64,000 nt of DNA from contig NZ_FZNO01000012.1 of assembly GCF_900188025.1 (NCBI RefSeq), positions 62,001 through 126,000 on the forward strand, written 5' to 3'. The notes below the pieces were generated by a model that was given only the letters and a program-made list of their open reading frames with translations, searched no databases and was not told the origin of the DNA. This document shows, piece after piece, positions 45,829 to 52,467 of the stretch; within the stretch, counting starts at the first letter, position 1, and the number at the start of each line of letters is the position of its first letter. The position numbers and the translations under genes are program-made. Source of the stretch: Blastococcus mobilis. Lineage in GTDB: Bacteria > Actinomycetota > Actinomycetes > Mycobacteriales > Geodermatophilaceae.

Positions 45829-45874
45829 TTAGCTGCGCATGTTCCTGCTGTCGCCCGTCGGGAGGCGCCGCCCG

Positions 45875-48043
45875 ATGACCGTGCCGCCGTCCGCGACCGC
45901 CTCCGGGCCGTCGGCCGACCGCGGGTCCGACGGTCTGCAGGCGCTGCTGCGTCCGCGGGGCATCGCGCTGCTCGGCATCTCCGGGCGCTCGGAGAACCTG
46001 ATGGCGCGGCCGCTGCGCTATCTCGTCGAGCACGGCTACGAGGGCGGCATCCACCCGGTCAACCCCCACTACGACGAGCTGGTCGGGCAGAAGTGCTATC
46101 CGACGCTGGCCGACGTCCCGGGCCCGGTGGACCTGGTGCTCGTGCTCGTCGCCGCCGAGCGGGTCGAGGACGCCGTCCGGCAGGCCGCCGGGGTCGGCGC
46201 CCGCGCCGCGGTCGTGTACGCCTCCGGCTTCGCGGAGGTCGGGCCCGAGGGGGTGGCCCTGCAGCAGCGGCTGGCGGCGGTCGCCCGGGAGACCGGGGTG
46301 CGCGTCCTGGGGCCGAACTGCCAGGGCTTCCTCTACGCCCCCACGGGCGTCGTCGCCACCTTCACCGCCGCGGCCGACCGGCCGCTGGCGCACGACAGCG
46401 GGGTGGCCTACGTCGGTCAGAGCGGTGCGGTCGGTGGCTCCGTGCTCGACCTGGCCACCGACATGGGCCTCGGCCTGGCCGCGTGGGCCAGCACCGGGAA
46501 CCAGGCGGATCTCGATCTGGTGCAGGTCTCCCGTGAGCTGCTGGAGGACCCCGCGGTCCGGGTGCTCATGCTCTACGTCGAGGCCACCGACGACGGCGCG
46601 GCCTACGCCGCCCTGGCCCGGCGGGCGCGGGAGACGGGCAAGCATCTCGTCGTCCTGCGGTCCGGCCGGTCCAGCGCCGGCCGGCGCGCCGTGGCCAGCC
46701 ACACGGGCTCGATGGTCGGCGACGACGTCGCGTTCGTGCTGACCTCCCAGGAGCACGGGGTCGTGCTGGTCCACGACATCGACGAACTGCTCGCCGTCGC
46801 CGCGGTGCTGGCCACCGGTAAGCGATCGGAGGGGCGGCGGGTCGCCGTCGTCACCACCTCGGGCGGCGCGGGAAGCCTGGCGGCGGACCAGTGCGAGGAC
46901 CTCGGCCTGGAGATGCCGGAGCTGTCGGCGCAGACGCAGGACCGGCTCCGTCCGCTGATCCCGGCGTTCGGCGCACTGGCCAACCCGGTGGACGTCACCG
47001 CCCAGCTGTTCAACCGCGGCGCGCACGCCTTCGGCGACGTCTGCCGGATGGTCGCCGACGACCCGTCGGTCGACGTGGTGGCGGTCTTCGTGACGATGGT
47101 CGTCGGCGAGGCCGGTGCCCGGCTCGCGGAGGACCTCGTGGCCACCGCCGGCAAGCTGCCCGTCCCGCTCCTGGTCGGCTGGATCGCCGGCCAGGAACTC
47201 ACCACCGAGGGCCGGGCGGTCTTCCGCGAGGCGGGCATCCCCGTCTTCAGCTCGGTCGGTGACGTCGTCCGGTGCGCGGCGCGCATGGCCCCGCCCCAGC
47301 GGACCGGCACCGTCCCGGCCCTGCCCCGGGCACCGCAGGTGCCCGTCGACGAGGTCAGGGCCCTCGTTCGGGCGCCGGTCGTCGACGGGCCGGCGCTGCT
47401 GCGCACCATCGGCATCGCGCAGCCGGCCTCGACACTGGTGACCGACGCGGAGGCCGCGCGCGAGGCGGTCGCCGCGCTACCCGGGCCGGGCGTGCTGAAG
47501 CTGTCGGCCGGCGAGCTGGCCCACAAGAGCGACGTCGGCGGCGTGCGGGTCGGCGTCCCGGCCGAGCAGGCCGCGGCGGTCTTCACCGAGCTGCTCGACG
47601 CCGCGAAGCGCCACCACGTACCCGACGTCGAGGGCGTGCTGGTGCAGGAGCTCATCCCTCCGGGCACCGAGCTGATCCTCGGTGCCACCGCAGGACGGGA
47701 CGGCTTCCCTCCGGTGATCACCGTCGGCCTCGGCGGGGTGACCACCGAGCTCTACCGGGACATCGCCTCGGGACTGGCTCCGGTGAGCCCGGAGGGCGCC
47801 TGGGCGATGCTGCGCAGCCTGCGCGCCTGGCCGTTGCTGGCCGGGTTCCGCGGTGCCGAGCCGGCCGACGTCCCTGCAGCCGTCGACGCCGTGGTTCGGT
47901 TGTCACAGGCCATCGTCGCGGGCGGGGATCGGCTCACCGAGCTCGAGGTCAACCCGCTCATCGTCGCCCCGCGCGGCCGCGGCGCCACCGCCGTCGACGT
48001 GCTGGTCGGCACCACCGGACCGGGCGCCCCGCTCGGCGAGTGA
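45875..48043 (+). CDS. ADP-forming acyl-CoA synthetase (acetate-CoA ligase family), 722 aa
   Basis: Single-chain NDP-forming acyl-CoA synthetase. N-terminal CoA-binding domain (LLRPRGIALLGISGRSENL), succinyl-CoA-ligase-like domain with VAYVGQSGAVGGSVLD and the likely phospho-His in VASHTGSMVGDD (about 276), then a C-terminal ATP-grasp half (VLKLSAGELAHKSDVGGVRVGV, EVNPLIVAP). Makes an acyl-CoA from a free acid with ATP. ATG at 45875 has GGAGG nine bases upstream; ATG at 45839 is in frame but lacks a ribosome site. Immediately downstream of the TetR operator; first gene of the operon containing the selenoprotein. Confidence 0.9.
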   Translation: MTVPPSATASGPSADRGSDGLQALLRPRGIALLGISGRSENLMARPLRYLVEHGYEGGIHPVNPHYDELVGQKCYPTLADVPGPVDLVLVLVAAERVEDAVRQAAGVGARAAVVYASGFAEVGPEGVALQQRLAAVARETGVRVLGPNCQGFLYAPTGVVATFTAAADRPLAHDSGVAYVGQSGAVGGSVLDLATDMGLGLAAWASTGNQADLDLVQVSRELLEDPAVRVLMLYVEATDDGAAYAALARRARETGKHLVVLRSGRSSAGRRAVASHTGSMVGDDVAFVLTSQEHGVVLVHDIDELLAVAAVLATGKRSEGRRVAVVTTSGGAGSLAADQCEDLGLEMPELSAQTQDRLRPLIPAFGALANPVDVTAQLFNRGAHAFGDVCRMVADDPSVDVVAVFVTMVVGEAGARLAEDLVATAGKLPVPLLVGWIAGQELTTEGRAVFREAGIPVFSSVGDVVRCAARMAPPQRTGTVPALPRAPQVPVDEVRALVRAPVVDGPALLRTIGIAQPASTLVTDAEAAREAVAALPGPGVLKLSAGELAHKSDVGGVRVGVPAEQAAAVFTELLDAAKRHHVPDVEGVLVQELIPPGTELILGATAGRDGFPPVITVGLGGVTTELYRDIASGLAPVSPEGAWAMLRSLRAWPLLAGFRGAEPADVPAAVDAVVRLSQAIVAGGDRLTELEVNPLIVAPRGRGATAVDVLVGTTGPGAPLGE

Positions 48044-48073: not shown

Positions 48074-48811
48074 GTGGGACAGGTACAGCTGGAGAGGCAG
48101 GGCGGCATCGCCGTCTTCACCATCGACAACGTCGAGGTGAAGAACGGCCTGACTCCCGAGATGGGGCTCCAGCTGTCCGGCCTGTGCGACGAGGTCGACG
48201 CCGACCCGGCGATCGGCGCGGCCGTCGTCCGAGGTGCCGGCGGCATGTTCTGCTCGGGGGCAGACCGCCGGCGCTGGACGGCGGGGGCCGACCAGGCCGA
48301 GGACCGGACCTACAAGGAGCTCGGCGCGGTCTACACCGCCTTCAAGCGGGTGGGCACCCTCCAGGTGCCGACGATCGCCGCCGTGCGCGGCGCGGCGGTC
48401 GGCGCAGGGCTCAACCTGGCCCTCTCCACGGACCTGCGCATCGTGTCGGAGAGCGCACGCCTGCTGGCCGGCTTCCTCCGCATCGGGCTGCATCCGGGCG
48501 GGGGTTACTTCACCATCTCCAGCCGCACCGCAGGCCGGGAGGCGACCGCTGCGATGGGGTTGTTCAGCGAGGAGATCGACGGCGTCCGGGCCGCCGAGAT
48601 CGGACTCGCCTGGAAGGCCGTGCCCGACGAGCAGGTCGAGGACGTCGCCCTCGAGCTCGCCGGTCGCGCGGCCAAGGACCCGGAGCTGGCGCGGGAGGCG
48701 GCGCGCTCCTTCCGTACCGAGGCGGGCCCGCCCGGGATCGGCTGGGACGCCGCGCTGCACTTCGAGCGGGCCACCCAGATGTGGTCGCAGCGACGGCGCG
48801 AGACCGCCTGA
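48074..48811 (+). CDS. Enoyl-CoA hydratase/isomerase-family protein, 245 aa
   Basis: Crotonase fold: VRGAGGMFCSGADRRRW is the first oxyanion-hole segment and RGAAVGAGLNLALSTDLRI the second. The two catalytic Glu residues of classical hydratase seem missing: the first is Asn (GLNLAL) and the second region reads FLRIGLHPGGG. So it may catalyse another crotonase-type reaction such as isomerisation, hydrolysis or dehalogenation. GTG at 48074 with GAGAGGCAG upstream, 30 bp after the synthetase. Likely acts on the CoA ester made by that synthetase. Confidence 0.88.
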   Translation: MGQVQLERQGGIAVFTIDNVEVKNGLTPEMGLQLSGLCDEVDADPAIGAAVVRGAGGMFCSGADRRRWTAGADQAEDRTYKELGAVYTAFKRVGTLQVPTIAAVRGAAVGAGLNLALSTDLRIVSESARLLAGFLRIGLHPGGGYFTISSRTAGREATAAMGLFSEEIDGVRAAEIGLAWKAVPDEQVEDVALELAGRAAKDPELAREAARSFRTEAGPPGIGWDAALHFERATQMWSQRRRETA

Positions 48812-48861: not shown

Positions 48862-48939
48862 ATGACGTTCGGACCGTTCGGCCGGCCGGGCGCCGGCGAG
48901 CTGTGGCCGCAGATCCAGACGGGAAGGGTGGGGGCATGA
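48862..48939 (+). CDS. 25-residue micro-ORF coupled to the selenoprotein gene
   Basis: MTFGPFGRPGAGELWPQIQT and five more residues, ending in a TGA that overlaps the ATG of the selenoprotein gene (ATGA). GGGAG lies seven bases before its ATG. Either a small translated protein or a coupling leader controlling initiation of the next gene. No similarity recognised. The 50 bp before it contain GC-rich inverted sequence (CGCGCGGCCCGCGCG). Confidence 0.45.
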   Translation: MTFGPFGRPGAGELWPQIQTGRVGA

Positions 48940-50381
48940 CCGACTTCGACGTGGCAGTGGTCGGCGCGGGGGTCGCGGGGCTGACGGCGGCGCGGGTGGC
49001 GGCGGAGTCGGGGCTCCGCGTCGTCGCCTTCGACCGGCTCTCTCCCGGCGGTCAGCTGGTCAACCTGACGACCGTGCACGACTACCCGGAGCCGGGCGGG
49101 TCGGCGGAGTCCTGGCCGGTGGTCTCGGAACTGGTCGCCCGGGCGGAGGCCGCCGGGGTCACGATGCGCTTCGACGAGGTCACCCACGTGCGGGCCGGGG
49201 AGCCGGTGCGGCTGGAAACCGGGGGCGGCGACGTGACCGCGGGCGCGGTGGTGATCGCCACCGGACTCGGCAACGGACGGCTGGGGCTGCCCGGTGAGGA
49301 GGCGCTCGTCGGCCGGGGCCTGTCGACCTGCGCCGGTTGCGACGGTCCGCTCTACCGCGGCAAGGCCGTCGCCGTGGTCGGTGACGACGAGTGGACCGCC
49401 GAGGAGGCGCTCGAGCTCGCGGAGCTGGCGTCGGCGGTGACGGTGCTGGTGCCGGAGTTGCCGACCTGGTCGGCTGCGCGGGCCGAGCGGCTCGCCGCGG
49501 CCGACCGGGTCGCGGTGGTGACGGGCGCCACGGTCACCGCGGTGCACGCCGACGGTGTGCTGGAGGGGGTCACCGTCCGAACCGCCGACGGGGAGCGCGA
49601 GCTCGCGGTGCAGGGCGTCTTCCCCTACGTCGGGCGCCGCGGACCGGCCGGGCTGGTCGAGGCCGCGCAGACCGACGAGGAGCAGCGGCTCGTCACCGAG
49701 GACGGCGTGCGCACCGCCGTCCCGACGATGTTCGTGGCCGGCGACGCCCGCGCCCGTGCCGGCCAGACGATGTCGGAGGCCATGGCCGACGGGGTCGCGG
49801 CGGGCCAGGCGGCGGTGGCCGCGCTGCGCCCGGTGACCGGCCCGAGCCTGACGATCGTCGACCCGACGTCCGGCGTCCTGCCCGCGGAGGAGGAGGCCGG
49901 GTCGCTCGCCGGCGGGACCGCCGGCTGGACGCAGGTCGCGCTCTTCTCCAACTCCAAGCCGAACGCGACCGAACTGCTGCAGGGCATGGGGGAGCGGCTC
50001 AAGGAGCACTGGCAGCTGGCCGACCTGGGCTTCGCCAGCAAGCCGAACGCCTCCACGGCGGCCGACAAGGACACCATCGACTGGCTCGCCCAGTGCTACA
50101 GGATGGTGCTGGTGGCGGTCGGTGATTAGGGCTCGTGCTCGTCGTGGAGTTTCCATGACTCGGTCGAACTGGAGAAGCGTGGCGTCGTGGCACCCCTCGT
50201 GGTGACCGAGACGTTCCTGCCGCTGGTGGAGGCGCAGGCGAAGGCGCGGCGGCTGACCCCGCGCGTTCTCGTGGTGCCGCACCCGGTGGGCGGGCTGAAC
50301 GGCGCGGAGTTGGCCGGCCGGATCGAGGCCGCGGCGGCCTCCCTGCTGCCGATGGCCGATCAGGCGCGAGGTACGGCATGA
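48936..50381 (+). CDS. TrxR-like/UGSC fusion, probable UAG-encoded selenoprotein, 481 aa
   Basis: Residues 1-300 are a thioredoxin-reductase-like flavoprotein: VVGAGVAGLTAARVA, redox pair Cys132-Cys135 in TCAGCDG, VAGDARARAG near the FAD site. From about 305 (TIVDPTSGVLP) the sequence is UGSC family: LFSNSKPNATELLQ, then VAVGD, then TAG at 50127-50129 (codon 398), then GSCSSWSFHDSVELEKRG, VVTETFLPLVEAQA and VVPHPVGG, stop TGA at 50379-50381. The TAG takes the place of selenocysteine (or Cys) in GDUGSC. TAG differs by two bases from TGA, TGC and TGT, so a single error does not explain it. ATG at 48936 overlaps the micro-ORF stop. A gene that simply ends at 50129 is the alternative, but it would split one conserved domain. 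Confidence 0.85.
50141..50159 (+). promoter_or_regulatory. SECIS-like stem-loop downstream of the in-frame TAG
   Basis: GTCGTGG (50141-50147) pairs with CCATGAC (50153-50159), with one G-U pair, around the loop AGTTT. It begins 11 nt after the TAG, the same distance as the apical stem of the E. coli fdhF SECIS, and has a G in the loop as bacterial SelB recognition requires. It lies within coding sequence, as bacterial SECIS elements do. Confidence 0.65.
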
Positions 50382-51421
50382 CCTCGGCCGTGTCGGACGG
50401 CGTGCTCGACCTGGTCGGCGTCACGGAGGACACCTGGCAGGAGGAGGCGCTCGCGCGCGGCTGGGGTGACGGGCTGCCGCTCGTGGCCCCGACGCCGGCG
50501 CGGGTCGAGGCAGCGCTGCGTGCCCTGGAAGGCAGGGAGCTGGAGCTGGGTCCGCTCCCGCCGTCCGGGCTCGTACCGACCCGGCAGAGTTTCGCCGCGA
50601 ACGCGGTGATGGCCGGCTGCCGGCCGGCCGATCTGCCGGTGGTGCTGGCGGCGCTGCGGGCGATGCTCGCCCCGGAGTACAACCTGCACGGCGTGCTGGC
50701 GACGACGCACCCGTGCGCGCCGCTGGTGATCGTCAACGGTCCGGTGCGGACGTCGCTCGGCATCAACTGCGGCACCAACTGCTTCGGCCAGGGCACGCGG
50801 GCCAACGCGGTGATCGGGCGAGCGGTGCAGCTGCTCACGATGAACGTCGGCGGCGCGCGGCCGGGGTCGATGGACCGCGCGACGCAGGGCAATCCGGCCA
50901 AGTACTCGTGGTGCTTCGGCGAGAACGAGGAGGAGAGCCCGTTCGAGCCGTACTCGGTGCGCCGCGGGTTCGCCCCGGGGGAGTCGGTGGTGACGGTGGC
51001 CGCGGCGGAGGGTCCGCACAACATCAACGACCACGGCAGCACGACCGGCGAGGGGCTGCTGATGACCATCGCCGGGACGATGGCGCAGACGGGATCGAAC
51101 AACCTGTACGTGAAGGGCCCGCACTTCCTGGTGCTCGGGCCGGAGCACGCGGCGACGCTGCACCGCGACGGGTGGACGGTCGAGGCGCTGCGGGAACGGC
51201 TGTGGGAGCAGGCGCGCATCCCGGTGTCCCAGGTGTCGGAGGAGAACCACCGCCAGTTCGAGGACTGGGGTGTGCAACCCGACGGCGGCTTCTACACGGT
51301 CAGCACCGGCCCGGAGGTGCTGCACATCCTGGTCGCGGGAGGGGCGGGCAAGCACTCCGCGTGGATCCCCTCGTTCGGCGCGACGGCCGCCGTGTCGCGC
51401 CCGGTGCCGGTCCGCGAATGA
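50378..51421 (+). CDS. Conserved protein of the selenoprotein operon, 347 aa
   Basis: Function not recognised. Motifs: WGDGLPLVAPTPARVEA, AGCRPADLPVVLAALRA, NLHGVLATTHPCAPLVIVNG, GINCGTNCFGQGTRANAVIGRA, GNPAKYSWC. Several Cys (THPCAP, NCGTNC, SWCFGE) suggest redox or metal chemistry. It shares its architecture with the next gene product (DGLP.V.PT, NLxGxxTT, RANAxxGRAV, PAKYxxC), so they are paralogues, perhaps a heteromer. ATG at 50378 overlaps the selenoprotein stop, which shows the readthrough product's TGA is the operon-relevant stop. No signal peptide or membrane helix. Confidence 0.85.
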   Translation: MTSAVSDGVLDLVGVTEDTWQEEALARGWGDGLPLVAPTPARVEAALRALEGRELELGPLPPSGLVPTRQSFAANAVMAGCRPADLPVVLAALRAMLAPEYNLHGVLATTHPCAPLVIVNGPVRTSLGINCGTNCFGQGTRANAVIGRAVQLLTMNVGGARPGSMDRATQGNPAKYSWCFGENEEESPFEPYSVRRGFAPGESVVTVAAAEGPHNINDHGSTTGEGLLMTIAGTMAQTGSNNLYVKGPHFLVLGPEHAATLHRDGWTVEALRERLWEQARIPVSQVSEENHRQFEDWGVQPDGGFYTVSTGPEVLHILVAGGAGKHSAWIPSFGATAAVSRPVPVRE

Positions 51422-52467
51422 CCGCTGCCGGGAGTCTGCCGGTGGCGGCCGACGACGCCGATCCTTCCGCCGTGCTCGTGGAGCTGCTCGCGGCCGGGCA
51501 CGGTGACGGCCTGCCCGTGGTGCCGCCGACGGCCACCCGTCTCTCCGCCATGCTGGCCGGGGTGCGCGACGCCGACGTGTCCTACGGGCAGGTCCCACCC
51601 CTGTTCGGCGATCTGACGGTGCGCGCCGTCGCCTGGTACGCGGTGCTGGCGGGGTGCCGGCCGGCCGAGCTGCCGCTGGTGGTGGCCGCGTGCCGTGCAG
51701 CCCTGGACGACTCGTTCAACCTGCTCGGCATCGCGACGACGACCGGCGCCCCGGCGGTGGCCGTGCTGGTGCACGGGCCGGTGGCCTCCCGGCTGGGTCT
51801 GACGTCGGGCTCCGGCGGGCTCGGCACGGGTAACCGTGCCAATGCCGGCGTGGGGAGGGCGGTGTCCCTGGCGCTGGCCGGACTGGGTGGTGCGACGGCG
51901 GGGCTGACGGACATGACGACCATCGGCTCGCCGGCGAAGTACACGTGTTGCACCGCCGAGGTGCGGCGGGGGCCGCTGCCCTCGCTGGCGCAGCGGCGGG
52001 CGCTCGGGGTGGACGTCGACGCCGTGACGGTGGTGGGGGCCGCCGGTCTGGTGGAGGTGCTGCCGGGGGAGGGATATCGGGAGCCGCCGTCCGTGCTGGG
52101 TCCGGCCGCCGCGGGGATGGCGGGGGTCGCTCTGGCCGCAGGGGACCCGGCGCGCGCCGGGCAGTCCGAGCAGTTCCTGCTCCTGCCGCCGGAGCCGGCC
52201 GAGCTGCTGGCGATGCACGGGTGGGGGTACGACCGGATCGCCGGGTTCCTGTTCGAACAGGGGAACGCGCTCCTGCGGACCGGGGCGTCCGCACTGGCCT
52301 TCCGTGCCGCGGTGCCGGCCTACGCGGCCGACGACCTCCGGGTGGCCGCGTCGGCGGACGACGTCCACGTCGTCGTCACGGGCGGGGCGGGCGTGAAGAT
52401 GCTCCTGCTGCCCCCATGGACGGGCGGATCCCGTTCGGTGACCGCGCCCGTCCTGCCGCTCGAGTGA
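51418..52467 (+). CDS. Paralogue of the preceding protein, 349 aa
   Basis: Unknown function. Shares with 50378-51421 the pattern GHGDGLPVVPPTATRLSA, AGCRPAELPLVVAACRA, NLLGIATTTGAPAVAVLVHG, TGNRANAGVGRAVSLA, GSPAKYTCC. The NCGTNC of its partner is SGSGGL here, so the two differ at the Cys cluster, consistent with one catalytic and one structural subunit. ATG at 51418 overlaps the upstream TGA. Last gene of the run 45875-52467. Confidence 0.85.
   Translation: MTAAGSLPVAADDADPSAVLVELLAAGHGDGLPVVPPTATRLSAMLAGVRDADVSYGQVPPLFGDLTVRAVAWYAVLAGCRPAELPLVVAACRAALDDSFNLLGIATTTGAPAVAVLVHGPVASRLGLTSGSGGLGTGNRANAGVGRAVSLALAGLGGATAGLTDMTTIGSPAKYTCCTAEVRRGPLPSLAQRRALGVDVDAVTVVGAAGLVEVLPGEGYREPPSVLGPAAAGMAGVALAAGDPARAGQSEQFLLLPPEPAELLAMHGWGYDRIAGFLFEQGNALLRTGASALAFRAAVPAYAADDLRVAASADDVHVVVTGGAGVKMLLLPPWTGGSRSVTAPVLPLE

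Follow-up and report, generated by a model that had tools for sequence, protein, structure and literature searches.

How does Blastococcus mobilis read the TAG codon that lies within the frame of one of its redox genes? The gene is located in the window, that is, the whole 64,000-nt stretch of the genome (designated G000) that we analyzed, and extends from an ATG at 48936 to a TGA at 50379-50381, with TAG at 50127-50129 in the same frame according to the translation. The initial annotation, made from the sequence alone, assigned this TAG to the selenocysteine (Sec) position of a UGSC motif, and it does lie in frame on the U of GD-U-GSC. We consider it very probable that the window UAG is recoded as Sec in a 481-residue redox enzyme, with the insertion itself as a prediction. 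The gene and its parts are as follows.

48936..50381, + strand: TrxR-like/UGSC fusion gene (Pfam), 481 residues with the TAG translated as U (U398)
48945..49793, + strand: TrxR-like flavoprotein domain PF07992, residues 4-286, E 3.3e-30, with a CAGC motif read in the translation
49854..50345, + strand: UGSC domain PF24696, split by the TAG, residues 307-470, E 1.4e-33
50127..50129, + strand: in-frame TAG at the Sec position of GD-U-GSC, from translation and comparison with relatives

The fusion gene and its in-frame TAG

The 83 codons between the TAG and the final TGA had been claimed to match the family domain, and the PF24696 match indeed spans the TAG. The length of 481 residues expected for the read-through product is borne out by translation, the downstream start suspected at 50187 is a GTG in frame, and TAG is two bases away from TGA, TGC, and TGT, as had been stated. 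The PF24696 score was 116.9 bits for the whole protein and 121 bits for the domain alone, against a gathering cut-off of 25. With NF041046, the NCBIfam UGSC equivalog (cut-off 125), the protein scored 104.5 bits and the UGSC paralog in the same genome 149.5 bits; with TIGR01292 (thioredoxin-disulfide reductase, cut-off 343.45), the window protein scored 193.8 bits. Because it fell below the cut-offs of NF041046 and TIGR01292, we call it a diverged UGSC member with a domain that is TrxR-like and not TrxR proper.

We collected 27 named UGSC loci by peptide pattern. The U codon was TAG in nine, all from Blastococcus or Geodermatophilus, and TGA in 18, which came from other Actinobacteria and from Alphaproteobacteria. 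Among 112 genomes of Geodermatophilaceae (family genomes, with membership judged by named relatives), 54 had a UGSC match, giving 95 matches altogether. Counted by hand from the full list, 72 of these contained exactly one TAG and 23 contained no stop, with neither TGA nor TAA in any of the 95. All 19 of the single-TAG matches that were read in sequence had the TAG at the U codon. In both UGSC genes of G000 itself a single in-frame TAG is present, at the Sec site. The UGSC genes of genera g5 and g7 that were read (L079 and L080) have Cys; these two and L078 read GDCAGC. Aligned around this site, as the initial annotation had proposed, UGSC homologs thus carry TGA, TAG, or a Cys codon.

Standard annotation reads the TAG as a plain stop, which would make the gene a pseudogene, a product of sequencing error, or a truncated protein followed by an unused downstream remnant. 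UAG does terminate some genes of G000: among 53 gene models selected by codon-position GC in 97 kb, 50 ended with TGA, two with TAG, and one with TAA. However, the same TAG is found in the nine named Blastococcus and Geodermatophilus genomes with the downstream domain conserved, and it recurs in the G000 paralog and in 72 of the 95 family matches. A pseudogene or sequencing error was rejected because of the conservation across named genomes, and a plain stop of any kind is hardly credible. Since UAG still ends two of the 53 models, its use here is recoding at marked sites and not wholesale reassignment. The initial annotation had spoken of stop-codon reassignment, which is right as to Sec recoding of UAG and too strong as to reassignment. 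We infer that Sec shifted away from the near-universal terminator UGA. The standard stop reading leaves only 397 residues of the window protein, and UGSC, FDH-N, and PrdB-like genes would be misread likewise family-wide.

Selenocysteine machinery and the hairpin after the TAG

A genome-wide check for tRNA-Sec(CUA), selA, selB, and selD had been suggested, and all were found in one cluster on contig C65 of G000 (5.09 Mb, 88 contigs, 99.99% complete). The genome has one clear tRNA-Sec, at C65:81524-81615 (L001:1501-1592), with the anticodon CUA and a score of 67 bits to RF01852 (cut-off 47); the next match above the cut-off, with 48.2 bits, was a tRNA-Ser according to ARAGORN. The genes selA (422.6 bits) and selB (276.6 bits) lie directly 3' of the tRNA, and selD (340.7 bits) lies upstream on the opposite strand. 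We judged UAG-Sec recoding by the tRNA-Sec(CUA), selA/selB/selD, a UAG where homologs have Sec (UGA) or Cys, and a SECIS-like hairpin after the codon, and found each of these.

ARAGORN labels the CUA tRNA of G000 as tRNA-Pyl, a likely source of misannotation across Geodermatophilaceae. If the label were right, UAG would be read as pyrrolysine; Ser or some other residue might also be inserted in place of Sec, and the nine Cys-coded sites among relatives indicate that Sec is not essential to the UGSC family. Such readings are very unlikely, given that the tRNA, with its 67 bits as tRNA-Sec, is placed directly upstream of selA and selB, and that homologs have Sec (TGA) or Cys at the UGSC, FDH-N, and PrdB-like Sec sites alike.

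For the Sec reading that we prefer, Ser-tRNA-Sec(CUA) would be converted by SelA using selenophosphate from SelD, and SelB on the hairpin 11 nt 3' would bring Sec-tRNA to the UAG, competing there with release factor 1. Selenium incorporation at UAG was reportedly shown by Mukai et al. in 2016. The hairpin is as follows.

50141..50159, + strand: SECIS-like hairpin GUCGUGGA-GUU-UCCAUGAC, 8 pairs, starting 11 nt after the UAG

We analyzed stem conservation over 24 of the 46 Sec-coded sites, both UAG- and UGA-coded, leaving out near-copies and the four 'type 3' sites L082-L085. In this set, 96.2% of cells were paired, compared with 15.8-52.2% for slid versions of the hairpin. Two-sided changes occurred at three of the eight stem pairs, and none of 500 shuffles, which ignore kinship, was as high. 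The loop codon AGT (50148-50150), the source of the G and U of the loop, was present in 46/46 Sec-coded and 0/9 Cys-coded sites. Related sequences enter these counts many times, and the comparison is only partial because Ser occupies this position in just one Cys-coded site of the nine. The 46 are all Sec-coded sites after removal of L038 (the window gene again) and the chance matches L019 +2399 and L115 -3462; the nine leave out L078, L079, and L080. Elsewhere AGT was rare as a Ser codon: 2 of 112 in six G000 gene stretches, and 10 of 405 in the surroundings of the Sec-coded sites.

The folding energy of the hairpin was ordinary: 16 of 200 shuffles folded equally well, and the window site folded no better than average in comparison with synonymous recoding (fraction 0.75). 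On these results, folding energy was rejected as evidence for a SECIS, and only conservation was used. The Rfam search near the TAG gave two rows, both far below their cut-offs. The conserved hairpin is predicted to be a SECIS and the binding site of SelB. As it is alike in UGA and UAG users, the signal appears to have remained unchanged when the codon was switched.

Codon and anticodon across Geodermatophilaceae

UAG was also found at the Sec site of other genes. The FDH-N gene of G000 reads NQARI-TAG-HSATVPGLGASFGRGGATN, with HSATVPG after the TAG. Among the FDH-N matches listed, at least 45 had one TAG, the Sec site of these TAG rows being read in G000 only, and one (G079) had TGA. In the latter gene (L236, G079:C12), the part surrounding the Sec codon is missing and there is a frame jump. 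UGA-Sec in this CUA genome was rejected, since the Sec stretch is absent and the TGA lies elsewhere; the gene is a pseudogene or an assembly fault.

The PrdB-like gene of G000 (L287:2655, G000:C65:116154) reads EGIDAALLVPV-TAG-PVCHQSV, with the TAG at the Sec site of UxxC. It has a frameshift upstream of the TAG; its relative in G038 (L289:1792) is intact and in frame, and scored 163.3 bits (E 6.3e-48) with PrdB TIGR04483, below the cut-off of 300. All seven PrdB-like matches in CUA genomes contained TAG, at least six of them at the Sec site; in one of these six there is also a TGA at another point of the match. In genera g5 and g7, every Sec site that was read is TGA: the PrdB-like genes of g5 have LAPA-TGA-PECC in 2/2 matches, at least four FDH rows of g7 have one TGA, and two of these rows, read at the Sec site, have CNRT-TGA-HAPSV. 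No tRNA-Sec was found in G067, one of the two g5 PrdB-like genomes, or in G071, one of the two FDH genomes.

The tRNA-Sec anticodon was CUA in 101 of the 112 family genomes and UCA only in seven (genera g5, g6, and g7); no tRNA-Sec was found in the remaining four. G058 is counted among the 101 though it has a second tRNA-Sec, with UCA (81.8 bits, L110:1169-1263, G058:C17). The UCA tRNA-Sec gene is close to a contig end, amid transposase-like frames as judged by eye. SelA had no match in the first 20 kb of contig C17, and one SelB above the cut-off was found in G058. With this tRNA, G058 might decode UGA as well as UAG; alternatively, the tRNA gene could be a mobile remnant.

We constructed a SelA tree of 56 rows, which comprised 22 of the 101 CUA genomes, four of the seven UCA-only family genomes, and 30 rows from other families of the order. 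In this tree all CUA rows fell into one group, with support 100/100. Of the other-family rows, 19 had UCA, 11 had no tRNA-Sec in the stretch examined, and none had CUA. The tree gives no branching order between the CUA group and the UCA genomes of Geodermatophilaceae.

Order-wide, the CUA pattern occurred in 75 Geodermatophilaceae genomes and in 2 of 322 others (G230 and G236); class-wide, it occurred in 6 of 394 genomes, where only two, both from Geodermatophilaceae, were tRNA-Sec-like. G236 and the four class-level matches were rejected as tRNA-Sec, which they did not resemble by eye. G230, from another family, has a tRNA-Sec(CUA) and a partial SelA on a 4.8-kb contig (L267, G230:C194). The partial SelA is 82% identical to the SelA of G000, and the other SelA of G230 (61.5%) lies beside a UCA tRNA-Sec; the contig is therefore taken as probably stray, judging from its sequence, and G230 was set aside as a genuine CUA user outside Geodermatophilaceae.

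Support for Sec recoding in the window gene is given by the codon, the homology across it, the tRNA, the sel genes, the conserved hairpin, and the codon-anticodon agreement between genomes. As to origin, we tentatively propose, at less than even odds, a single change of the Sec codon, from UGA to UAG, within Geodermatophilaceae, which at least the UGSC, formate dehydrogenase, and PrdB-like genes underwent together while the SECIS stayed unchanged. The drive may have been that UGA is nearly the sole terminator, so that Sec moved to a little-used codon of release factor 1. The UGA-keeping sister genera would then represent a living 'before' state, and G058, with CUA and an extra UCA, may read both codons. 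UAG- and UGA-using genera in one family make a natural before/after pair for a change of Sec codon, across which the hairpin and sel genes are kept while anticodon and codons switch together.

Predicted function and comparison with known systems

The genes next to the fusion gene are as follows.

45839..48043, + strand: acyl-CoA ligase-like gene (CoA-binding, succinyl-CoA ligase-like, and ATP-grasp domains), presumably of the same unit
48074..48811, + strand: enoyl-CoA hydratase-like gene, the upstream neighbor (PF00378, E 1.8e-37), presumably of the same unit
50378..51421, + strand: 347-residue partner protein, without a Pfam family
51418..52467, + strand: 349-residue paralog of the partner (34% identity), without a Pfam family

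A relative of the 347-residue partner lies 3' of UGSC in 26 of the 27 named loci, from both Actinobacteria and Alphaproteobacteria, and the enoyl-CoA hydratase-like gene is upstream in all nine TAG relatives also. Tandem paralogs like those at 50378-52467 are found with UGSC in Alphaproteobacteria as well as Actinobacteria. All nine named TAG loci have the TrxR-like part fused, and in the 10 TGA loci (out of 18) where a TrxR-like match lies upstream, it is a separate gene. Besides Sec insertion, we infer an electron path and a substrate. Within the 481-residue enzyme, electrons from NAD(P)H would pass through the CxxC of the TrxR-like part to the Sec-Cys pair (UxxC) of the fused UGSC domain and serve to reduce an organic substrate, CoA-linked or otherwise; judging from the neighboring genes, the substrate is perhaps a CoA-linked catabolic intermediate.

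The structure model of UGSC (49836-50378) has five alternating beta/alpha units with a mean pLDDT of 87.2, and Sec is placed between strand 90-96 and helix 99-114, at the helix start. Its matches were to generic folds of the flavodoxin and receiver kind: nine by Foldseek at E <= 0.001 (TMq 0.41-0.53), and others by VIA with Z up to 12.2, closely followed by unrelated rows; as the matches are generic, no function was drawn from the model. In the consulted part of PMC2398784 a Trx-like fold is supposed for UGSC, and the order of elements in our model does not look like that fold. The model of the 347-residue partner had no Foldseek match at E <= 0.001 and a VIA Z of at most 6.8. Sequence search of the PDB gave five rows for the UGSC profile, none better than E 0.28, and no match for the partner profile. 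The modeled structures of UGSC and its partner did not reveal a reaction. GrdB/PrdB (PF07355) and UGSC are alike in that Sec follows a strand-like stretch and a motif of the UxxC/UGT type comes after it. These similar motifs had suggested a possible kinship of the two; in the hhalign alignment the Sec residues are paired, and its probability of 2.6% (E 0.018) does not demonstrate common descent.

UAG-directed Sec had been said to be known for Geodermatophilus and Blastococcus, and Geodermatophilaceae UGSC genes with it are already in print in the SecMarker paper (PMC5330540). According to this paper, tRNA-Sec(CUA) occurs in Geodermatophilaceae, their formate dehydrogenase and UGSC-motif selenoproteins were reported by Mukai 2016, and AhpC was added by PMC5330540. 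Excerpts of PMC10778597 and PMC8124441 also cite UAG as a Sec codon. The published system, as described there, and the window agree in the tRNA-Sec(CUA), in UAG within UGSC and formate dehydrogenase genes, and in the family. As the recoding is already known in Geodermatophilaceae, the window gene is a further example of it and not a new phenomenon. Beyond the account in the excerpts of PMC5330540 are the window gene with its TrxR-like fusion, the PrdB-like UAG gene, and the UGA-keeping sister genera. Our additions are the PrdB-like UAG gene, the hairpin kept across the codon switch, the one CUA branch in the SelA tree, the sister genera that keep UGA, and G058 with its additional UCA tRNA-Sec. 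In titles and abstract openings, we found no UGA-keeping Geodermatophilaceae; a UAG-coded PrdB may already have been reported.

The UGA-coded UGSC selenoproteins (PMC2398784, as excerpted; PF24696, NF041046) share with the window the domain, the U-x-x-C site, and the kind of hairpin, and their named loci share its two partner genes. The window differs from them in its UAG codon and in having the TrxR-like part fused instead of separate. Pyrrolysine decoding resembles the window in that a CUA tRNA reads UAG, whereas the tRNA here is of the tRNA-Sec type and lies beside selA/selB.
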